Shown here piece by piece: positions 41,801-60,231 of a stretch of DNA of 64,000 nt. Numbering within the stretch: position 1 is the stretch's first letter; each line of letters starts with the position of its first letter. The notes under the pieces were generated by a model. That model was not told the origin of the DNA. It did not search any database and saw only the letters and a program-made list of their open reading frames with translations. This stretch comes from Plumapathes pennacea (taxonomy: Eukaryota; Cnidaria; Anthozoa; Antipatharia; Myriopathidae), in the NCBI GenBank assembly GCA_964036295.1, contig OZ038464.1:26548508-26612507 (forward strand). Direction: 5' to 3'. Both the position numbers and the translations under genes were made by a program.

Positions 41801-44510
41801 AGAAAAGTTGACCGGATCCGAGTGTGGGAGCGCCCAAAGGGGTATGCTCCCCTGGCAAAAAAAAAAAAAAAAAAAAAATAGAGAGAAAACTTAATGGACG
41901 AAAGCATACTTGGCATCGTCGGCATTAGATAATTCTCAAGGCAGAAACACGACACTTAGTTTACTCTACCTGATTGGGTCTGCGTCCGAATTTCTCCTAT
42001 TCTGCTCGTAATCCGGCAAAGATCTCCATTTAAAAGTTAATTCCCAGTTAAAAATTCCTCGGTTATTACCACCCTTGCTACTAACATAAGAAAACGTCCT
42101 CAAGTCTATAACTTCAATATCTGGCGTGACCACGATAGTCCTGTTGGATGCGATTCTTGCGAGCAGCGGTTCTAGCCAACCGTAATTAGCTTCGCAGTGA
42201 GAATCCAGGAAAACCAACACCTCGCCAGTCGCTTGTTTGGCGCCACGAAGTCTGGCTCGTATCAGGCCCTCTCGCCTTGGCGCTCGGACCAGTCGAACTT
42301 TTTTCAGCTGTGAGATGTAGTCTTCCAGTTTTGTGTTAAGATGACCTATGCGCAAGAGGGAAAATTGTAATACTGTGATCGTGGAAGCCTATAGTTGTGT
42401 AGACCGGCTTTACAGGGGTAAGGGGCGATGGGGGTGCCGGGGGGAGCACAAGCATTAAAGCAGTAACCATGGCAGCACACGGACGAGGTCGAAAAGGTGA
42501 TACCGAACCAATTTAACAAAAATATAAAAAAAGGATTGGGTCAGTTTATGCCACAATGTTACAATCAAGGCTTGAAAAAGGAAACTTCATGCCTTGATTG
42601 GAACATTGGAACACAAGGCTTGAGCAAGTTGCAGGACCTAATGTCCACTAAGAACCATTTCACTTACCGTAACGTTGGAAGTCGCTACAGTCGTCCACCA
42701 GAATGATTTCTTTCAAAAGATATGGAGGTGATCTTGCTAACACTGTATGCACAGTTCGTAGCAACGTGGACCAAGCTTCGTTGTGAAATATGACAATGAC
42801 ACTGGTTGAAGGCATATTCCTTGGATATTTCAGCGAAAAACACCTAACGCGTACAAAATGAGATCCATAAGGGAAGTGCTAAAATTTCACGAAGACTTAC
42901 TGTACTAATAACAAGCTTTAACATTTATTTTTTAGTTGAGACCACAAAGACAACTGCAAGGCAAACAAAACGTTCAGTGTCATACCTGCGCCGGCCGTGA
43001 TCAGCAGATTCAGCCGCTTGAAAAATTAAACCGCTAACAAATGCTTGAACCCGGCACTTCAGGCAATAAACTTAGTGAAACGGCTGGTGATATTTTGCGA
43101 AATTAAACGGTTAATTAGTTTCCCAATCAGCCGTTCCGTAAATTATCGAAACTACTGTTTCGCCTGATTTATAGCGTTTCACAAATTAACCGTTTCGCAA
43201 AATATCCGCGCCGGTTTCTTAATTTACCGTTTCGCAAAATACAATATTCCAATCTCAGCTTCCCTTTCGACTAGAGGGTTTTCTTCACAACAACTAAAAA
43301 TCAGTACCCCTGAGCCCAGCAAACTTTTATGGCGATCATTCCGAGGCTTGAAAAATGCTTCTTACGATGGACCTGATTTGGAGCCGAGAAAAAGAACCTG
43401 CTCATTCACTTTTAACACTGTTTTCAAACGAAAAGAAGCAAGAACTTGCACTTTTCTCAGTGTTGCTTGCTCCTCGAAAAAATTAGTTTGTTTTCGGAAA
43501 CAGAATAAAATGTTTTGAATAGTATAAATTTCCAAGGCTGTGAAAAGTTGGCCAAAAATATTTTGCATTTTCTCGTCAATGCTTTATGGCCTAAAAGGTC
43601 AGTGGGCTTGGGTTAAGGGCCGAGAAGACGACTGATGTTTTAGGCTGGTCACTACTTTTTATGAGCCGAATCTCTTTGTTACAGAATTTTGTGTGACTCT
43701 ATTTTGTTTCCGTTGAGAGTCAAAAGACCTCACGGATAAACAACTTTTGTTTAAAATTGACTCAAAGTAAGTCAAGCGACCACCCGTGGGGTAACACAAA
43801 AATCAACACAAGAAGTGCATCTCTTCAAGTGCGACCTGTTCCTGTTCTTTGTTTATATCGATCTCTTGATCGCAGAACAGGTCTTATAAAAAATTGATGA
43901 GCGGATGACGCCTGCTTACCTCTGTTAACTGAAGGAGAAAAGGAGACACGATCCACGGCGCCTTACCCATCAAACAGCAAACATCACCAGCTACCGATGA
44001 TTGCAACCTACTGATACTTTCACCCGGCATTGATCGATAAAGAAGGATACTTTACAAATAGGTTTCTTGCGATTGTTATGAAAACAAAATATTTGGTCCA
44101 CAAACTATAATAACTTACTCAGACGGTCGGTTATCGGGAATCGCTCGCTCCAGCGAAATCTTCGAGCTTGCCAGTTCGTTGAATTTGTATTTCTCGTGCC
44201 CTTCATCTTCCATTGCTTTCTCGTTTTCCTTGTTAACCACAGCCTGCCCATTTTCCCCTATTCCTCTGAGTTTTGGAGGAAGCCCTGTAACATACATCGC
44301 CCTGAAATCGGCGACACTCAACATTTCCGAGAGGTCGGTTTGAATATTGGAAGCGGCATTCAACTCGTACGATTCTCGCTCGTTTTCATAGTTAAGTCTA
44401 GCGGTGTAGTTTAAAAGAATAAGCTCTATAGAAAGCCAGAAGATTGAAGTGGCGAAGATGGTGAACAAGATGTATCTCTTCCTGCTTGAACGAATCATCT
44501 TGGAAGACAA
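38366..44510 (-). CDS. Polypeptide N-acetylgalactosaminyltransferase A (GALNT family)
   Basis: GALNTs start mucin-type O-glycosylation by adding GalNAc from UDP-GalNAc to Ser/Thr in the Golgi. Exons: 44119-44510, 42668-42843, 41970-42345, 41649-41766, 40636-40950, 40117-40218, 39263-39394, 38366-38515; total 1,761 nt, 586 aa, all phases matching. It is a type II membrane protein: a short basic tail (MIRSSRKR), then a signal anchor at about residues 13-36. The catalytic domain has [17 protein letters not shown], the DSH metal motif at about 237-239 (VFLDSHCEA), [10 protein letters not shown] and WGGEN at about 344-348. The C-terminal ricin-type lectin domain has three repeats with [19 protein letters not shown] and ETQKWRF. 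All catalytic motifs are intact. The subtype cannot be fixed by eye. A paralogue on the same strand lies at 54721-59878. Confidence 0.93.
38768..38823 (+). repeat. (GTT)n microsatellite
   Basis: About 18 GTT units in the last intron of GalNAc-transferase A. Confidence 0.9.
40336..40570 (+). repeat. Degenerate GAT/ATG trinucleotide array
   Basis: Runs of GATGATGAT/GGTGAT in the intron just downstream of the exon ending at 40636. Read on the minus strand it gives a His-rich frame continuous with that exon. The GTAGGA donor and the lectin exon at 40117-40218 show it is intronic. Confidence 0.85.
43078..43216. repeat. Imperfect inverted repeat with TTTTGCGAAA core
   Basis: ATATTTTGCGAAATTAAACGGTTAA at the left faces AATTAACCGTTTCGCAAAATAT at the right. 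CCGTTTCGCAAAATA then repeats once more near 43226. Lies in the first intron of GalNAc-transferase A; probably a degenerate small element. Confidence 0.6.
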
Positions 44511-45122
44511 ATAGCGACTGAATACACATGAATGTAGTGTTTTGTTTGTGTGACCGCCTCAGAACCCGCAACATCCAATATTTCGCGATGTTCCTCCTCG
44601 AGAAGCCAAACAAATCAGCACAGACCACTTACATCTTCATTCTTGAAAAATAACGTGCAGACGACCGATCAGTGTCGCACTCGCCAGCACTTCTGATTGT
44701 GGCCGCGTCGTGGCGAAATCCAACACGCATCAATGAATATGCTTGCTCTTCGTGACTTCCGCTTGCCTCGACTTGGTCTTCTCACCGGAAACGTGTCGAG
44801 TAGATTGCAGGGGGAGGGAGGGGAGGATTTGTACCACTGATGGCCGAACAATTTTAATGCCAAACCACATATAATTATTCGGTCTGACAATGATTGATAT
44901 AAACCACACAAGTGGAAAGTGCTTTTAAACTATAAAGTTCATTTTAGCAATTTTCACTGGTGAGCTTTTGTGTGAACGTTTTCAACTCGGATAGCAACAA
45001 AGAAATAATCAACCTTGCTTGCCAAAAAAAAAAAAAAAAAAAAAGCCAGTTCGAGGGGCAATCCTGCTGAACACCCGTCCACGCTCAACGAATAGGGAGA
45101 GATTATTCGGCCCCCGAGCTAT
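44511..45122. other. Upstream region of GalNAc-transferase A
   Basis: No gene seen. Should contain the promoter of the minus-strand GalNAc-transferase. A run of A at about 45025-45043 is the only simple repeat. Confidence 0.5.
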
Positions 45123-45324
45123 TTAACAAATTGACGTCAGTTTTTTATGTGTCTGTCCTCTTATTGATCATGAAACGCGTCATAACATTGTCAAAAAGTT
45201 GTGGATCCACGAGGCGCTTCGCCGAGTGGATCCGCAACTTTTTGACAATGTTATGACGCGTTTCATGATCAATAAGAGGACAGACACATAAAAAACTGAC
45301 GTCAATTTGTTTTTTACAATAACA
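45123..45324 (+). repeat. Left terminal inverted repeat, self-palindromic
   Basis: The arms are 45125-45210 and 45226-45311, with a single mismatch (TTGTGG against TTGCGG), and the loop is GAGGCGCTTCGCCGA. The arms include GACGTCAGTTTTTTATGTGT and CTGTCCTCTTATTGATCATG. Just inside the repeat, at 45344-45383, the phrase ATGATCAATAAGAGGACAGA occurs once more beside a TTTCTCGCTTTGTGATTGGC segment. Confidence 0.9.
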
Positions 45325-45461
45325 CGTCAGTTTCTCGCTTTGTGATTGGCTAATTTTCATGATCAATAAGAGGACAGACACATAAAATGATAGCTTGCGT
45401 GAGCAAAAACTACGTGAGCAAAATTTACGCGAGCGAAACATTGCGCGAGCAAGCACTCAAT

Positions 45462-46914
45462 ATGGACGAAGAGCCACGTTTTGAACTCGATTTAGGTCTG
45501 AATGCTTTCGAAAACTACATTCCGGATTGGAGCAAAGAACCGGAGTGTTCTGATGAAGAACTTCTAGCTTGTGCTGAGGTTGCCGAGGCCGAACTAGAGA
45601 AAAGTGGTCGCTTCGCTACGCTCAATAACAATGAGCTACAGAATATTGTGACAAATGCGGACTCCAAAGGGACAAAAAGAAATACAAAATGGTTTGTGAA
45701 GGCATTTGAAGGTAAATATCAGTTTATTTTTCCTGGTGTTTTTACATGACCTATTAACTGAATATAAACACGAACTAAAAGTTTGTACGTACCTCGCTTT
45801 TACAGATTGGTGTAGCGAGAGGGGCATCAAGAAAACCCTTTTCAACATGACGGTCGCTGAGCTGGACGAAAATCTTCGCAGGTTCTATGCAGAAGCGAGA
45901 ACCAAATCAGGCGAGGAATACAGCCGATCCTCGCTCCTGGGTTTCAGAAACTCGGTAGAGCGCCACTTCAATGCCAGTGGGCGATCTTTGAAACTGACGA
46001 AGAATCCGGCTTTTAGCCGAAGCAACAAAATGTTGGAGTCAAAGTTAAAATCCATACGCAGAGCGGGGAAGGAAAACATAAAACACAAGCCAGTAATCGA
46101 GTCTGAAGACCTACTGAAGCTGAAGAACAGCCCCTTCATGGATCACAGTACGCCCGACGGACTCCTTCGGAAGGTTTGGTTCACTGTCACTCTGCACTGG
46201 TGTCGCCGAGGTTGCGAAGGACAGCGTTCACTTCGCAGTTCCAGCTTTCAGTTTAAGAAGGACGCAGACGGGACTGATTATGCAACCATGACACACGAGG
46301 AACTAACAAAAAATCACCAAGGAGGATTTAATGACCGGCCCAGCGACGAAAGGCAGACCCGTCTGTACAGCACTGGAAGGGAAGGCGATGCATTTTCTTG
46401 CTTGAAAATGTACCTGTCTAAACTGAACCCCGCACAGGAAGCATTCTTCCAAAAACCGAAAACCAAGTTCGAATGGTCGGATGCTGTTTGGTTCCAAAAC
46501 AAGCCTCTGGGGGTTAATCGTCTGTCGACGATTATGAAAGAAATCTCCTTGGGAGCTGGTTTGTCAAAAGTCTACACGAACCATTCTGTTCGTGCAACAG
46601 CCATTACCCTGTGGTCAGATGCGAGCGTTCCAGACCGCCACATCATGAGCATCTCTGGCCATGCTAATGAGCAAAGTTTGGCGAGCTATAACAGACGGCC
46701 CTCCAAAACTCAGCTGAAGAATTGCTCAGAAATTATTTCACGTGCTCTCGAGCAAGGTGGTCAAGCTCCGAGCCAAAGCGCAACCTTGTCTTCCAGCTCG
46801 TCAAGATCGGTGGCTGCGTTGGCGACAAATGGCTCCCTGAACGGGATTTTCAATTCTTGTAACATTGGCCAAGCACAGGTTTTTATCTTGCCACAAAACA
46901 CCTCTAATTCTTGA
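45462..46914 (+). CDS. Tyrosine recombinase of the DUF3504 / Crypton type
   Basis: Tyrosine recombinases cut and rejoin DNA through a covalent 3'-phosphotyrosine; Cryptons use one to move as circles. Exons 45462-45711 and 45806-46914 (a 94-bp GT-AG intron) give 452 aa. The N-terminal part is acidic (MDEEPRFELDLGLNAFENY). A helical SAM-like/core-binding region follows (KWFVKAFEDWCSERG, AELDENLRRFYAEART, GFRNSVERHFN). The catalytic domain shows a first Arg in CRRGCEGQRSL, the H-x-x-R box in NHSVRATAITLWSDA, and a second His and terminal Tyr in SGHANEQSLASYNR. All key residues seem present. The mature start could be the earlier in-frame ATG at 45387, but 45462 gives a cleaner N-terminus. There is no second gene in the element. 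The family also gave rise to domesticated animal genes (KIAA1958, QRICH1, ZMYM). Confidence 0.88.
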
Positions 46915-47136
46915 ACAATTGTGCAAATTTTGCCGAACTTTCCTTGACTGAGTTTTGCCTTCTTAATTTATTCATGCTTCAAATGCTCACGTCAAACTGT
47001 CATTTTTTAGCCAATGAAATGTCTTGAAATTTAACGTTAACCAATCAGACAGCGTGAAAGTTATTGACAATGATTTTGTCAGATTGAATAAAGTGCAGTT
47101 TTAGTGCGTGTTTTCCCCGCGTCGTCGCTTGATTTT

Positions 47137-47338
47137 TGTTATTGTAAAAAACAAATTGACGTCAGTTTTTTATGTGTCTGTCCTCTTATTGATCATGAAA
47201 CGCGTCATAACATTGTCAAAAAGTTGCGGATCCACTCGGCGAAGCGCCTCGTGGATCCACAACTTTTTGACAATGTTATGACGCGTTTCATGATCAATAA
47301 GAGGACAGACACATAAAAAACTGACGTCAATTTGTTAA
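47137..47338 (-). repeat. Right terminal inverted repeat, self-palindromic
   Basis: Exact reverse complement of 45123-45324 by eye, including the outer TTAA (47335-47338) and the loop asymmetry (TCGGCGAAGCGCCTC). Confidence 0.9.
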
Positions 47339-47388
47339 TTATCCCATAAATCCGAAGAGCGCTTAAATGTTAAGCCGACTTTTTAAAA

Positions 47389-48080: not shown

Positions 48081-48745
48081 CAAAAAAAAATTAAGTTTAA
48101 AGAAAACCTCGTACACTAGACGAGTCGACTTTTGTCAATATTTGTCATAAGAGTTTCAGCTGTGATCAATGCGGGGGATGATAGATAGATCTTTTCAGTT
48201 TGAATAAGTTGTGAAAGTTAAAAATCAACTTGAGCGACAGGTGACCATCGCGCGAAATAAACCAATTCGTCGTTTTTTCAGTTCTTTTACCTCAGAAATG
48301 ATTACTGTATTCCCAGAGCTGTGTTCTTTAGGATGAAATTATGTTGATCCAAGCAGTTCAGGATTTGCATGTGACTTCAGTAATTGTCTTACATGTTTAC
48401 ATAAGAACTGCTCTACCACTGCTTATTACTTCGTCACTTTAGTTCTGACAACCTTAAGTAGTTTCAGTTAACTCCGATTCTCGGCAACAAGGGTGTTTTT
48501 GTTATATCTTATTTTTGGAGACTGCTAAGAGTTGATTCTCCATGAAGCAGGGTACGTATGACATATGACATTTGATTGGGCCTACCCCACCATAAACTAA
48601 GGAAAAATGATACCAACCAATAGAAAGGATCTGTCTTAGCTGTCAATCCCGCATTATGACGCGAAAAAATTACTTACAAACCATCTATTTATACAACCTG
48701 GTGTGTCAACTGAATCAGCAGGCAGAGAATCGCATCGTTCTTAAA

Positions 48746-50416
48746 ATGAATTTGTCCAACAACATTTCATCTGGTAATTCAACCGGGATAAAAAATGCTG
48801 AAGATGAATGGGTGGGTATTCTTGAGGCGGTCTTGCTGGGTGTCATCCTCCTCGCCGCTGTCTTAGGTAATGCGATGGTCTGTACGGTGGTTTATAGACG
48901 AAGAGAACTCCGCCGAACTGTGACGCATGTCTTCATCGTGAGTTTAGCAGTTACGGACATATCCGTTGCGCTGCTTTGTATGCCGTTTTCCATTGTTACC
49001 GCCGCCACCCAGATGTGGACCTACAGCGTCGCTCTGTGCCAGTTGAACGGCCTTCTCAACGTGTTCTTTCTGCTAGCGTCCATCCTCACGCTAACTGCCA
49101 TCAGCGTGTACAAGTATATTCGCGTTGTCAAGCCTGTGCACTGTCTCCTCACACAGAGGAGAGCGCTGATCGGTCTGGCGTGCGTGTGGGTTTTGGCTCT
49201 CTTCACCGCTGTATCTCCGCTCATGGGCTGGAACAGGTACGAACACATCGAAGGGAGGACGCAATGCTCACTCAAAGTACCCCAGAATGCAGCCGAGTTA
49301 ACAAACTGCCTATTTGTCATCATTTGCGGCTTTGTCGTCCCACTCGGCGTAATGTCCTTCTCTTACCACAAGATCTTTCACACCGTTAGGACGCACACCA
49401 GGCGGGTCCGTACGAGTCAGGTGTTTGATAAGCACGAAATGAGCGCGTTTCTCAGCGAGAAGCGCGTAACAATAACACTCTTTATTATTCTGGCCGTTTT
49501 CCTTGGTTGTTGGGCTCCCTTCTCTGTTCTCACCATCTACGCTACTATCACGCGCAAGGAGCTTCCTAAGCATTTCTCCGTGGCTGCTTATTGGTTAGGG
49601 TTCCTAAATTCCGCGCTCAATCCTGTCATTTACGCCCTTCGAACGAAAGAATTCCGAGACGGTTATCGGGAAATACTCGGCACAGTGCTCCCTTGTTGCT
49701 TTAACAAGAGCGTAAGGCGTACGATCAATACGACTTTCAAGTGGAGCCAAGCTGATCAGCGAAGCCGCCGAAGTTCTGCTGCCGTGAACTGCCAGGGGCT
49801 TACAAAAGCGAACAGTGTAAGTGCTGAGGGAACCTTCGCACGAGAGAGAAAGCGCACCGCGACAAACGATTTTACTTTACAAGAGGAAGACATCGCTTTG
49901 GACGAAGGACCTTGTCCTGGCGATGCAAATCGAGATAAAGCAGAGATAAATGATCAAAAAAGAACAAACGAGCGTGCGAACATACCCGCTGAAAGTCAAG
50001 ATTCTTTGGGTCTGAACAAATACGAAGCTACAGCCACTTCTAACGACTCGAACCTGCCTGTCGCACAGAGGGGGATTTCAAACAGATGTTTTGCTGGAGA
50101 CAATGGGGAAGCGATGGAGAGAGGGATCGAGTACTCGAACAAAAAGGACAACGAAACTACATCCCCGGACCAGTTAAACACTCGAGCAAGAAAGCGATCG
50201 CATAGCGACTCAGCAGTCAAGTGTCGAAAGCAGCGAGGAGGACGCGAGAACAGTAGCAGCTTCAGACACACTGGGAGAGCGACTGTTTATTCCACTTGTA
50301 AACCGTGCTCTAAAAACATTAACGAAGACAGCGAAGGAGCTCACAGTTTGACGTATTCCGCTGCGACTATTTCAGGTCCGGATTTCTCAAACTCAGAGGT
50401 TGTTGAGTTCGTTTAA
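48746..50416 (+). CDS. Rhodopsin-class (class A) G-protein-coupled receptor, single exon
   Basis: The 556-aa receptor sits in the plasma membrane; the ligand is unknown. The N-terminus has three N-glycosylation sites (N2, N6, N11). Seven hydrophobic segments follow: TM1 ends LLAAVLGNAMVC with the GN motif, TM2 has SLAVTDISVALL, TM3 begins at the disulfide Cys in YSVALCQL, TM6 has FLGCWAPF, and TM7 has LNSALNPVIYALR (NPxxY). The DRY box is replaced by YKY at about residues 122-124 (TAISVYKYIRV). MGWNRYEHIEGRTQC in loop 2 gives the second Cys. A palmitoylation-like CC follows helix 8, then a 190-residue polar tail. It resembles amine, adenosine and opsin-like orphan receptors of cnidarians. An upstream in-frame ATG at 48656 exists; 48746 is preferred for the short glycosylated N-terminus. 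Confidence 0.9.
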   Translation: MNLSNNISSGNSTGIKNAEDEWVGILEAVLLGVILLAAVLGNAMVCTVVYRRRELRRTVTHVFIVSLAVTDISVALLCMPFSIVTAATQMWTYSVALCQLNGLLNVFFLLASILTLTAISVYKYIRVVKPVHCLLTQRRALIGLACVWVLALFTAVSPLMGWNRYEHIEGRTQCSLKVPQNAAELTNCLFVIICGFVVPLGVMSFSYHKIFHTVRTHTRRVRTSQVFDKHEMSAFLSEKRVTITLFIILAVFLGCWAPFSVLTIYATITRKELPKHFSVAAYWLGFLNSALNPVIYALRTKEFRDGYREILGTVLPCCFNKSVRRTINTTFKWSQADQRSRRSSAAVNCQGLTKANSVSAEGTFARERKRTATNDFTLQEEDIALDEGPCPGDANRDKAEINDQKRTNERANIPAESQDSLGLNKYEATATSNDSNLPVAQRGISNRCFAGDNGEAMERGIEYSNKKDNETTSPDQLNTRARKRSHSDSAVKCRKQRGGRENSSSFRHTGRATVYSTCKPCSKNINEDSEGAHSLTYSAATISGPDFSNSEVVEFV

Positions 50417-54720: not shown

Positions 54721-57700
54721 TCACGTGCTCTTGTACTTGGAAAACACCCACCGCTGACTCTTGCGTCCATCGCACGGATTCATGATGACGTACTGTTCGC
54801 CATCCTCCCCGCGATCGAGACATTGTTGCGTGGACACGTGTTTGATAAAACCCTGTGAGGACAGAACGGGTGCAGTCAGTACAGAATGTGCGCGACAATT
54901 GTGTCGCCGACACGGTGTGTCCATCTAACTGCGCGCAACAATTGTATCGTAATCACCTAATTGCGTGCAATTGTGTCGTAATTACCTAACTGCGTGCAAC
55001 AATTGTATCACGTTCACCTAATTGCGTGCAACAATTGTATCATGTTCACCTAACTACGCGCAACAATTGTATCGTAATCACCTAATTGCGTGCAATTGTG
55101 TCGTAATCACCTAACTGCGTGCAACAATTGTACCATGTTCACCTAATTGCGTGCAACAATTGTGTCGTGTTCACCTAACTGCGCGCAACAATTGTATCGT
55201 AATCACCTAATTGCGCGCAACAATTGTGTCGTAATCACCTAATTGCGCGCAACAATTGTGTCGTAATCACCTAATTGCGGGCAACAATATTGTATCATGT
55301 TCACCTAATTGCGTGCAATAATTGTGTCGTGTTCACCTAACTGCGCGCAACAAATTGTGTCGTAATCACTTAATTGCGCGCAACAATTGTATTCTTCCGC
55401 GCAACAATTTGATCGTGTGACCACCTAACTACGTGCGAACATTGCGCATGTAGCCGGACCTTAAATCTATTCGTAGAGCATTTGGTAATTACAGTACTAA
55501 AAAAGCCTCCTACAAAGAGTCGGCAGAGTACATACGGCTTTCCTGTCGTGTTCCCACTTCTGATTGCCTCCCATGCCGTGGCACTTGAGTATGTCCACGG
55601 AGGCCCCGGGATGGGACTTGGATACGTCCACGCAGTTCTCGTCCTCAAACAGGATCTCTCCTCGAGACGACAACACAAACATTTGATTGCCACCCTGACC
55701 GTGACACATGTAAACGCCGAGACGCGCCGAATGCTCCGGTTTGGCGCCGAGAGAATCTAAACAGTGGCCACTGTTGGGATTGCGAACCTGTCAATAAAAG
55801 AATTCAACGGGAGCCCGTTAGACTGCGCGCTTGAAATTCTCAATGCGCCATGTTTCGGGGCCTCCAAAAACTGCAAATTAACGAATTTGCTAAGTGCCCG
55901 TTTGATACAGCGCTAAATGACGAGCTTTGATTGACATCAGATTTACGTTTTATTGAAGTAACTGATAACTGCCCGCAACAACATAATGGAATCAAATGCT
56001 AGTCCCAGTGAGAGCAACTTTTGGTAGATATTATATGCTTGCCTAAATTGTCTTACGCTCACCTCTCCGCTAGCCGGGGGGTTGATTTCCGGCATCTGAA
56101 CGTCTGGGTACACATTGTCGATATACCACTTGAAGCTGTGGCACTTGAGTCTCTCACGAAGTTTTACTCTCTCGCTAATATCTCCATACTCCATGTTCCT
56201 GGCTTGTGGCTTCTTGTTGTAGTACAGTTCCTTGTATTCGTCCATCCAGACTTCCGCCAACCTGTTGAAGTTCTTTGAGAGCGTCTTCTCTACTCCGTCA
56301 GGGAATTTGTACGGACTCGTGAACTTTCTGAAGACATGACCCACGCGAGAGCAAGGGACAATTTCCAATCGGCCACCGCACATCCAAACCTGAAACACAT
56401 GCAGATAGACTTGAACTCAAGCTTTAGTGAGGTAATAAGTTTAAAAACAATTTCATTCTACTCGTCTAGTAGCACGACAAATCAAGCACACACAGATTAT
56501 GCATCAAAATTTGTCCAAAACCCGGGCTTACATTTAGCGTCTCTGACGAGTTATCCGTCTGATAAAAAATGGCTGCGTGAGTCTGAAATGTCCGATCGAA
56601 AATGTATTTAAAAAATCTCAAAAATAATTTTAAATTGTTAAATACGGATTTCTTTACAAATTCAATTGATCAACAGCGTCAGATCCTTACTAACAATTCT
56701 AGAAACTAGTATATTGTTGAGATTTTTGAACTACATTTTCTATCGGAAATCTCAGACCTGCTCAATATTACTTTTTCCGCTAATATATACCGTACTATAC
56801 GGTTACTAATAACTCATCCAAATGGATAATTTGACTCTATTTATCAAATTTTTACTCCCGCAATAATTTCTCACTCATTCTAAGTCTCTTGGCTACTGTT
56901 TGGAATCATTATATATGTAATACAATGTTATTAAACTCGTCTTGCACCTACCCTAAACGACAGCTCTAAGTTTTCACCGCCCCAAATATCCATTTCTTCA
57001 TCATAGGACCCAATGTGAAAGAAATACTGCCTGTGGATTGAAAACAGGCCTCCCGCCATGGTAGGAGTTCTGAATATAAAGAAAGAACCGAAAAAGATGA
57101 ATGTGAAAGTGACCTTCGCAGTTATGAAGCAACTTAGGCAAAAGATAAGAATATAAAGAAAGCAACCGAGAAAGATCAGATCAGAACAGGGCCTAGACCT
57201 CATTTGAACACAATTTTTATCACAGCTCCTGTAGTCTTTTTCTGACCTGATTGGATCTGATGGATCATTTCTAAGCCTCTGCTCTTCAGGAGGAATTCCC
57301 TTCCATTTAAAAAACAGATCCCAGCTGAAACCCCCTCTCTGATCGGCATTGGTAGAGCCTTGATACGCAAAGTTGTCTGCATTGATGACTTCTATGGCTG
57401 GACAGACCACGTTGGAGCGATCTGCTGCAATCCTTGCCAAGAGCGGTTCTGCCCATCCAGGTGTGGCCTCACAGTGAGAGTCTAAAAAGGTAAGCACGTC
57501 CCCCTTGGCTTTCCGGGCACCCGACAGCCGTGCACGGACCAAGCCCTCTCGCTTGCCATTTCTTATCACTTGGACCTTACTCATCTGGGCCACATGTTCA
57601 TCCAAAGGTTCACCTAATCTGTCTATTGGGAAGGCAAAGTGGATTGTCAAGGTTTTGATTGCAGTATACATGTACATGTACATGTACTATACTTTACTAT

Positions 57701-59878
57701 ACTATTTTTTCCCCTATATACTATAGGGGAAAAAAGTAAATTAAAACAAGTAGAGCACAGTACAATACCCACCATCTTGACTGAAGTCATCCACAACAAT
57801 AACCTCTGTTAGCAGTTCTGGTGGAGTTCTATTTATGACACTGTGGATGGTACGGAGTAGGACCGAAAGACGTTCCTTGTGAAAGCATATAATTACAGAT
57901 GTGGTTGGAAGTTTGTCAGGGTAATTATCATGCTTGACTTTACATCTGGGAAAGAAAGACAGAAGAAGCAAAGTTAACACAGTAGTTAAGCCTTGGTACT
58001 CTAGGTCTTCAACTCCTGGTAGAGACTGGCCCTGAATATAGAAATAACACTATGAGTTGGTTTTACTTTGTTGAGCCTCTGTGGTTTCATAACAAAAAAA
58101 TACAGTTGAACTTCCCTATTTCGAACTTGTACAATTCAAAATCCCCATTATTTCGAAGTCAAGCCAAATCCTAGTGGATACATTTTTCAGTCATTTATTA
58201 TCAGCTATTTCGAAACCCCACTATTTCAAACTTTTTGTCATGTCCCGTGGGACTTCAAAATAGTGGGGTTTGACTGTAATGCTTTGAGCAGTGGCAAGAG
58301 AACTGTATGTATGGTAAAAGAACCGCTATTGTATGTGTTTGAAAGGAGATATTCACTTTGCAGCAATCACTCTCAAGTTTTTAAAGTGCTACTAGACTAA
58401 AGCCTCTAAGCCTTAGTGGCTGACGTTTTAGGCCTGTGACTGTAAGAGATTGATAAGAGATACTTGAAGATTTCTTTCCAGATCAGCTGTGTGTGTGCAC
58501 ACATTGTACTAATTTATACAGGGTTAAAAAATATGCTAGCCCATCAAGTAACTAATTCTTGCCAAATCACACTTGAATGGTTTGGAAATTTGTAGTAACT
58601 AAATGAGGGGATTTATCATAAAACCACTTGCCCAAAAGGAATCTCTAAAATTGTGAACAAAAAATCAATAAATGCACGGCTGTGACAACTTAGCCTTTGA
58701 AAAACTCTGTTTACCCACACCAGCTTGGTACACTTCAATTTAAATGCTGGCAAGCTTTGCCAAATAACGAAAACAAAAGGAGGGTGTGTCACCAAGGTGA
58801 TAACAGAAGAGATGTGGAATGTCAATCAATGAACCAAATTATTGTAAAACATCAGCTTGATAAAACTTAAAAGTGATTCATCATAAAATAAAACATGCTA
58901 CCAGTACAGTGTACGAGAGACAGGCAGTTTCCATAGAAATTCATGACATAAAATAGAGTATAGTTAGTATTAATAATTAATTACAAATTATTTGAAAATC
59001 TTGTTGTTTTCTGTTAGTAAAACGTGAACACTGATGAATTGGCTTATTTTAAACACTACTGTACATTAACTTATGTCTGAATCAAGCGGCTTCATTAGTA
59101 CCAACGGCAAACCAAAACAGCGTGCAAAATTGTCAGAGAAGGATCTGTCTCCCAGGCCAGCCTCCCTCTCTTGGGAAAAACTCAAACTGAAACATGTGCC
59201 GCTTGTAGCGCGCGTGCCAGTTTTAATAAATTATTGGCATTAACCGGCTTTCCTATTCTAATGGCTCACAATTTGGCTTTGTATCATAGAACTATATTTG
59301 TCACGGTACCACTGAACGAATTGGGTAAAAATAAACACGGGCCCTTTGAAATTTAGAGAAATACACACTTACTGTTCGCCACGAACGTCCTCCAGAGTTC
59401 TATCAAGTGAAATCTGGTCGCTGAGTACCCAGTTAAAAGAATGCTCAGAGAATTTCTGCTCAGATAACTCTTTGTCTTCTTTAGAAGTTAGTGAGGCTGC
59501 TCTTCCTCCTTCTCCTAGACCATTTGGGTCCCTCAGTTTCGCTCTACTTGCATCGTACACATTTTTACTCGCTCCACTACGTTTTCGTGGAATCACGGCT
59601 ATGATGGCTTTAGCAGCTCCTGCTAGCAGTCCCGGTTTGTCTGATTTTACCTCCTGGTCCTTCTCCCAGGGATACTTGATGTGTCTGTGTTGAGGTTGTA
59701 AAGGCTGAACGCCTGCACCGGTCATGTAATGATGGTGGTTATCAAAGATTACCGGAGAGTTGAGCATTGTCAAAGATTGCCTTGTCATTTCATCGTTGAA
59801 CATTAAAAGAAGCACCGTAACGGCAAACCAGAACACCGATGTCAGTAAGACGATGTTGAATATTCTCCAAAGGCCCAT
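54721..59878 (-). CDS. Polypeptide N-acetylgalactosaminyltransferase B (GALNT family)
   Basis: Same reaction and Golgi location as the enzyme at 38366-44510. Exons: 59373-59878, 57773-57945, 57247-57613, 56952-57069, 56063-56389, 55536-55787, 54721-54852; total 1,875 nt, 624 aa, phases closing. The signal anchor is at about residues 7-28 ([20 protein letters not shown]), followed by a stem of about 130 residues. The catalytic domain has [18 protein letters not shown], where most members have HNEAWS. It also has [14 protein letters not shown] (DSH at about 271-273), [12 protein letters not shown] and WGGEN at about 378-382. The lectin domain has [33 protein letters not shown] and [11 protein letters not shown]. 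Intron phases match paralogue A, but lectin exons 6 and 7 of A are one exon here. It is divergent from FBXL4 with 353 bp between starts. Confidence 0.93.
54929..55440 (-). repeat. Tandem array, about 31-34 bp unit, roughly 15 copies
   Basis: The units read like GCGTGCAACAATTGTATC followed by GTAATCACCTAATT or ATGTTCACCTAACT. Each carries the palindrome CAATTG and alternates CACCTAATTGCG with CACCTAACTGCG. The array fills most of the last intron of GalNAc-transferase B. Confidence 0.9.
58101..58278. mobile_element. MITE-like element with TACAGTTGAAC ends
   Basis: Starts TACAGTTGAACTTCCC and ends GTGGGGTTTGACTGTA. The outer ends are inverted repeats with two mismatches. The interior has repeated ATTTCGAA phrases (CTATTTCGAACTTG, TTATTTCGAAGTC, CTATTTCGAAACC). 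Intron 1 of GalNAc-transferase B. Confidence 0.65.
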
Positions 59879-60231
59879 AGTAAAGATCCGTAATGAGGGG
59901 TTCTCTTACTGAAAAGATCCGGGGAAAAATTCACACTGTGAAGCGAAATCACCGGCACAGCTGGAATTTTGTAGAACTGTATTGCCACGTACAAATCGAC
60001 GGAAAGCGTCAATTATTCGACCCTGGCACTTGCACTGCGGATCTTGGTGAACCCGTGATAATGCTCAACGAAGAAACCCGAAGAAATAGTTGTGTGCAGG
60101 TGTACGCAATGAGCATGATTCAGACAAGGCAACCTGGCCTTCACCTCGAAAACTCTCCCAGGGGAGGGACTGGTGATTATTTTTGTCGCGTGGAAGAACA
60201 AGATGTCGCCGGTCATTGATCGTGAAATGCA
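59879..60231. promoter_or_regulatory. Head-to-head intergenic region GalNAc-transferase B / FBXL4
   Basis: The 353 bp lies between divergent start codons and is inferred to hold both promoters. A small frame at 60203-60235 sits directly before FBXL4. Confidence 0.5.

Follow-up and report, generated by a model that had tools for sequence, protein, structure and literature searches.

We describe an element of Plumapathes pennacea that is probably, at odds that we put near 0.6, a recently active Crypton-like DNA transposon with asymmetric folded ends, moved by its own tyrosine recombinase (YR) on folded and possibly single-stranded DNA. It lies in the window, as we call the whole stretch of 64,000 nucleotides that was analysed, and its parts are given in Table 1. 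The case rests on a conserved hairpin (P) at the right end, on an exact match between the two ends of the element and an internal junction, and on blunt insertion into a recognisable target.

Table 1. Parts of the transposon and their positions in the window
Feature	Position	Strand	Remarks
Canonical unit L-YR-L(inverted)-P	45312..47338	+	2027 bp, length equal to the C8 copy L010
Additional palindrome P, left side of window copy	45123..45311	-	Outer end TTAA; rare arrangement
Left end L, 12 nt, TTTTACAATAAC	45312..45323	+	
YR gene, exon 1	45462..45711	+	83 codons + 1 nt
YR gene, GT..AG intron	45712-45805		Splice sites read from sequence alone
YR gene, exon 2, catalytic domain DUF3504 / Phage_integrase	45806..46914	+	Stop included
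Inverted L, immediately 5' of P	47138..47149	+	Splint (bridge) together with 5' arm of P
Right-end palindrome P, 189 nt, near-perfect	47150..47338	+	Ends TTAA
Tip of P, TC-GGCG-AAG-CGCC-TC	47236..47250	+	2x2 mismatch + mini-stem; recurrent deletion breakpoint among genome copies
Terminal TTAA of right end	47335..47338	+	Element sequence, no target duplication

The initial annotation had reported exact 202-bp inverted copies with TTAA at both outer edges, and these are indeed present. The inverted arms extend over 205 nt (45120-45324 versus 47137-47341) with 100% complementarity, and the outer TTAA tetranucleotides were located at 45123-45126 and 47335-47338. Each arm contains a palindrome of 187 nt whose halves are 3 nt apart; the inverted repeats within the arms have arm lengths of 97 and 92 nt and a 3-nt spacer. 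Near the element, a 601-aa single-exon frame was observed at 48611-50416, which resembles a rhodopsin-type GPCR. The segments 56931-57686, 59369-59905 and 44115-44558 are presumably pieces of polypeptide N-acetylgalactosaminyltransferase genes arrayed in tandem; no Pfam match was found in 44115-44558.

The genome (290 Mb, 24 contigs) was searched with window positions 45123-45330, and among the best 40 of 1684 candidates, 38 rows were 100% identical over 202 bp, including the window's own right end. Twenty regions around rows of this palindrome search were fetched, of which L039 and L043 contain rearranged or nested copies. In the fetched regions, as in the C8 copy that bears the YR, the element starts with TTTTACAATAAC after variable upstream sequence and ends with CTGACGTCAATTTGTTAA before variable downstream sequence; because of these shared limits between variable flanks, we define the canonical unit as in Table 1 and regard the left palindrome of the window copy as added. 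Exact patterns, which overlook mutated copies, were counted 541 times for the right end (0 for a reversed-pattern control), 228 times for the P/body junction and 8 times for the P-to-left-end junction, the window and L039 being among the eight. With 8 versus 228 exact junctions, the long left arm is a peculiarity of the window copy, and the suggestion that long terminal inverted repeats are the normal state of the element was not borne out. Since similarity to P was what selected the first 40 copies, intact right ends are over-represented among them, and the terminal TTAA may therefore seem more invariant than it would in an unbiased sample; one F2 copy (L023) ends in ATAA rather than TTAA.

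The plan of L, gene, inverted L, P and right-end TTAA was found in all five YR families (F1-F5), each with its own version of the ends. The expected association of a Crypton-type YR with such ends is thereby confirmed, and copies with both the ends and the protein, which the initial annotation proposed to look for, exist in every family; many further copies bear F1 ends without a YR gene. The F5 left end was observed in L025 only. Among broken relatives, L024 is cut upstream of P and L033 retains only part of a left arm. A simple palindrome finder was positive in 9 of 22 YR loci, a count that overlooks F2, whose P is visible by self-alignment, and L025, which folds. In the inner unit of L039, P lies left of the body, in the opposite relative order. 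Several unusual arrangements were also recorded. In L027:796-1071 (gene orientation), F4 left ends stand head to head around an AT repeat and form a 276-nt palindrome with 134 of 138 positions paired. In L065 and L066, half a P in opposite orientation is joined to the MITE body end, and the joint of L066 is a precise TTAA/TTTT junction between right and left end (R/L). Eleven precise R/L junctions of this type were counted genome-wide. Such junctions occur at same-strand neighbours about 620-650 bp apart (C1:23310217 and 23310841; C5:8503895 and 8504547), which are possible tandem dimers.

The recombinase gene is intact in the window copy, both exons being open, as had been recognised initially from its two-exon structure with HxxR and a terminal H...Y. 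Domain searches of exon 2 identified DUF3504 (E 1e-9) and Phage_integrase (E 1.2e-6), both of which are present in all 5 families. Comparison of the five families revealed that RRG.EGQR, NH.VRAT, SGH and an SY/HY column are kept; which R among these motifs is catalytic is our assumption. The R-H-R-Y catalytic residues thus appear to be retained, as in an active YR rather than a domesticated DUF3504 gene. It is the single gene of the 2027-bp unit, which encodes neither an RT nor a DDE transposase. In other collections, PHROGs returned two integrase families (E 1e-6 and 4.8e-6) and a PDB sequence search returned the integrase 3nkh weakly (E 0.065 alone, 0.0018 with profile A2); another PDB match, 5ooo (E 0.43), was rejected as chance. 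NCBIfam gave nothing above family cut-offs, one scan of viral_contigs gave no confirmed relative, and the structure predicted without an alignment had a pLDDT of 36.

A protein search of the genome with the YR yielded at least 114 matches (111 of 232 candidates scored). F1 comprises the window copy, the C8 copy and two broken copies, and YR identity to F1 is 63% for F2, 53% for F3, 52% for F4 and 48% for F5. The C8 copy is 99.8% identical to the window element over 2038 bp. Six between-family comparisons gave pN of 0.28-0.38 against saturated synonymous change (pS 0.77-0.85), and therefore the YR has been kept. Among F2 copies at C4 22.7-25.9 Mb (L014, L015, L017, L018, L020-L022 and L030), the flanks are about 98.9-99.3% identical to L015; these shared-flank copies are recent segmental duplicates carrying the element, not independent insertions. 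We file the element as a putative Crypton-like YR element with undescribed ends, an assignment made by domains, motifs and the lack of a target duplication; the asymmetric 12-nt repeat and P set it apart from the described Crypton groups.

The right-end palindrome is exceptionally stable as single-stranded DNA, with a folding energy of -106.1 kcal/mol for the window copy (z -27 against 200 shuffles, none equally stable). Covariation was assessed in an alignment (A1) of eight P sequences from F1-F5, with pairs counted on the F1 fold. On this fold, 87% of cells are paired, 54 of 89 pairs are changed on both sides (12-25 in slid controls), and the covariation score is 0.528 compared with 0.099-0.142 in slid controls. 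P is thus shown to be maintained as a hairpin through compensatory change. Pairs retained per row amount to 89/89 in F1, 83-86 of 87-88 in F2, 80/89 twice in F3, 61/86 in F4 and 46/85 in F5, figures that favour F1, from which the reference structure was taken; F5 aligns poorly though its own fold is long. Conserved palindromy could stem in part from template switching between the arms. A near-perfect palindrome also folds in either strand and as a duplex cruciform, so pairing alone is no proof of single-strand action. Matches of P to the microRNA families MIR2646, MIR2606 and MIR4245 were below gathering scores and were discarded as reflecting palindromy only.

The tip of P follows one pattern, TC, a stem of 3-5 bp, a 3-nt loop and TC, in F1-F5 and in the L079 family (folds read by eye); in F5, the TCs lie within a 3x3 loop. 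On the opposite strand, the tip mismatch is GA/GA, so the two strands differ there; tandem GA pairs are stable in DNA. The L079 YR family, at about 30% identity, has the same hairpin type. It was one of five distant YR genes whose 3' flanks were fetched (L079-L083): L080, sister of L079, lacks one arm as far as the tip; in L081 a hairpin is present and in its sister L082 part of an arm is gone, the element end being fixable in neither of these two; and L083 (36% YR) has no hairpin within 900 bp. The finder scores were 27.0 for L079 and 25.5 for L081; in 68 other 900-bp pieces of the window, used as a control, palindromes were found in 4/68 at score 16 and 0/68 at 25.

The junction between the body and P provides the link between the two ends of the element. 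In F1-F5, its reverse complement equals the right end minus the last AA, followed flush by the left end. On the L side of this splint, the runs of identity are 13, 11, 12, 11 and 11 nt in F1 to F5. On the R side, identity is 40/40, 39/40, 37/40 and 40/40 in F1 to F4, the F2 mismatch being the third base from the junction, and F5 has an 18-nt run within 20/40. Minimum free energy folding of the whole single strand with its flanks, carried out on one YR element from each family, paired L with inverted L at 12/12, 11/11, 12/12, 11/11 and 10/11 positions in F1 to F5, and L paired with inverted L at 12/12 positions in all three MITEs folded. One strand by itself can therefore juxtapose its 3' and 5' ends beside P, with the final AA as a flap. 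Apart from use of the folded strand, or of a duplex core equivalent to it, we know of no simple reason for so exact a splint fit.

Three paralogous empty sites define the insertion to the base. They were obtained from nested insertions in L043 and L039, where a MITE is inserted within another MITE, and in L042, where a MITE is inserted within the hairpin of a different YR family. Joined flanks matched uninterrupted copies over 140 nt (100%) and 160 nt (99.4%), and those of L042 matched L032 over 110 nt at 92.7%, with both sides of equal length. At all three sites the inserted DNA is TTTTACAATAAC...TTAA without duplication, and therefore TTAA belongs to the element. The initial annotation had considered insertion at TTAA and proposed to look for empty sites with a single TTAA; the empty sites show neither a duplication nor a TTAA, which is the last part of the right end of the element itself.

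Flank pairs were collected for 28 insertions, of which the window copy, with palindromes on both sides, was excluded, leaving 27 (23 with F1 ends, 4 with F2 ends). Insertion is blunt: none of the 27 left flanks ends in TTAA, and no edge repeats of 4 nt or more were found among the paired flanks. The target has A at -8 in 25/27 (one-sided binomial P 7e-12, uncorrected for 20 positions inspected), W at -1 in 26/27, T at +2 in 22/27, T at +3 in 17/27 and T or G at +4 in 24/27. Full triplets are looser, with CAA at -10..-8 in 7/27 and TTG or TTT at +2..+4 in 13/27. Of nineteen further right flanks, which include two of element sequence (L065 and L066) and omit L077 for want of a usable right flank, 16 have T at +2 and 13 have A at +5; of four additional left flanks, 3 have A at -8. 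The resulting consensus, cAAt-N5-W^NTTKA, is loosely similar to the ends, its left half (cAAt) resembling the right end and its right half (TTKA) the left end. Such a resemblance would be expected if one protein recognises both ends and target, and the target site looks recombinase-like.

Many genome copies of P are interrupted at its tip. Exact counts gave 279 right halves from the tip, 172 full centres and 191 left halves, so 107 right halves are without the exact nine left bases and 19 left halves are without the exact right side. Point mutants account for part of these 107. Ten right-half copies were fetched (L069-L078), seven of them chosen for also having an exact right end; nine are deletions that end at the tip or a few bases off, and L073 is a full P with one point change. 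Nine deletions mapped by BLAST, L063 included, have nine different left ends, from 40 to 473 of a 657-bp MITE, although those at 185 and 188 are close together. Extra bases were found at the joints of L070, L076 and L077, and seven shared bases at that of L063. On C1, 14 of 38 exact right halves are without a full centre, and arms lost up to the tip were also seen in other families (L032 of F5, and L080). A separate element ending at the tip was rejected as the source of most half-P copies, given the nine deletions among the ten fetched; this account does not extend in detail to L061, L065 and L066. The deletions fit synthesis from the right end that stalls where the new strand folds back. They are compatible with single-strand insertion and do not prove it.

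A model can be proposed from these features, in which the single-strand step is inferred. During replication or excision, one strand would become single, P would fold, and pairing of L with inverted L would bring the 5' end (TTTT..) up against the 3' end (..TT-AA) on a continuous splint, by which the recombinase core (arm, six T, arm) would be rebuilt. The recombinase would bind this folded core and exchange one strand with a loosely similar target of the above consensus, and the second strand would be made by host DNA synthesis. Synthesis entering via the right end would often halt at the tip of P, giving varied internal deletions that share one breakpoint. In the window copy, an extra P is joined to the left end at a junction of the same type. 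More tentatively, at somewhat less than even odds, the element may stand for a eukaryotic transposon class in which a YR acts on folded single-stranded DNA, both ends of one strand meet on an internal splint beside a hairpin of about 190 nt, and a single exchange is finished by host replication.

Other means of movement were weighed against this model. The initial annotation offered two readings. One was an undescribed YR element with TTAA insertion, of which the YR with undescribed ends stands and the TTAA insertion falls for want of a duplication. The other was a recombinase gene captured in a foldback that is moved by a TTAA-targeting DDE transposon; piggyBac, Kolobok and Sola3 have this TTAA habit, and the window copy does carry TTAA at both outer edges. 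Such a mover is not supported because both the TTAA duplication and the long inverted repeats as normal state fail: in ordinary copies TTAA occurs at the right end alone, as element sequence, the three empty sites are without it, and the gene of the unit has no DDE match. We give this reading hardly any weight. Rolling-circle movement, with Helitron2-type ends and the YR gene as a passenger moved in trans by Rep/Hel, appears improbable. The hairpins of Helitron2 and Helentron elements are short. As described in the accessible parts of PMC3627910 and PMC5148889, these elements share with the window family asymmetric terminal inverted repeats whose 3' copy lies directly upstream of the 3' hairpin, and Helitron_like_N matches are common in this genome (at least 150). 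However, they encode Rep-Hel and not a YR, whereas here the gene of the element matches YR families only, and a YR with its own matching ends persists under constraint in five diverged families. Their insertion preferences, TTTT^T/C for Helitron2 and within TT for Helentrons (PMC5148889, in part), misfit A at -8 and W^NT, and on C1 the 84 exact right ends are all more than 10 kb from any of the 27 Helitron matches listed there, the closest pair being 17 kb apart.

It is also conceivable, though on balance unlikely, that the YR cuts out a double-stranded circle, which it then integrates by way of the R/L junction, with P and the body/P junction serving as an extra att site or regulator. A circle model has been published for Cryptons (PMC3212892, available part), the internal junction equals the R/L core (arm, TTTTTT, arm) that the target resembles, and the precise R/L junctions in the genome fit tandem insertion or a circle. 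This account leaves unexplained the compensatory pairing of P and the flush splint in five families. The junctions, moreover, are blunt and keep TTTT and TTAA, with no variable overlap bases in a sample biased to intact right ends. The folded-strand model is the one that we prefer.

Among known systems, IS200/IS605 elements use internal guide sequences that pair with the ends, and their transposase is of the HUH type, occurs in bacteria and archaea and is unrelated to this recombinase. Their terminal hairpins are important for transposition, a likeness to the window family (PMC3627910, available part). Some Helitron2 and Helentron elements have target duplications of variable length, according to the same part of that paper. 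Several of the Helitron_like_N matches in this genome lie within open frames above 1000 aa. CryptonA resembles the window family in its one YR/DUF3504-type gene, the absence of a target duplication and an excess of non-autonomous over autonomous copies, as the accessible text of a 2011 survey describes (PMC3212892). The same text reports animal Cryptons to be without recognisable terminal repeats and describes the typical YR site as a pair of inverted repeats around a spacer of 6-8 bp; unlike CryptonA, the window family has a 12-nt asymmetric inverted repeat and a right-end hairpin of about 190 nt with a conserved tip. In the available part of PMC5753468, a paper that names human and salmon Cryptons, the terms 'palindrom', 'hairpin' and 'inverted repeat' do not occur. 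A literature search, within a scope that excludes subscription journals and Repbase, found no report of hairpin-ended Cryptons.

A precedent in mode of action is the integron, whose IntI is likewise a tyrosine recombinase and with whose attC sites the anatomy of the window family is compatible. The attC sites recombine as folded single strands, with the first exchange finished by replication (PMC2727003, available part), and, as in the window family, the site is a hairpin with strand-marking mismatches (PMC2727003 and PMC4792948, available parts). The blunt insertion of the window family would likewise fit exchange of one strand, with replication resolving the product, and folded-strand YR action would be the animal counterpart of attC recombination. 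Integrons are bacterial platforms, whereas the hairpin described here, of about 190 nt, sits at one end of a transposon and is accompanied by a splint that serves the opposite end.

Ends that can fold as one strand into a conserved hairpin structure joining both tips suggest an undescribed way of moving. This folded-strand mode could extend to animal Cryptons generally, given that the hairpin type recurs in a YR family of about 30% identity. With base-level definition of the ends, the splint, the target consensus and the empty sites, in a family that has right ends by the hundred and intact recombinase genes, end recognition by animal YR transposons becomes directly testable. Should the folded strand prove to be the substrate, recognition of single-stranded sites by tyrosine recombinases would extend from bacterial integrons to animals. 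It would also suggest that DUF3504 proteins, which are domesticated relatives of these recombinases, might sense DNA shape besides sequence.
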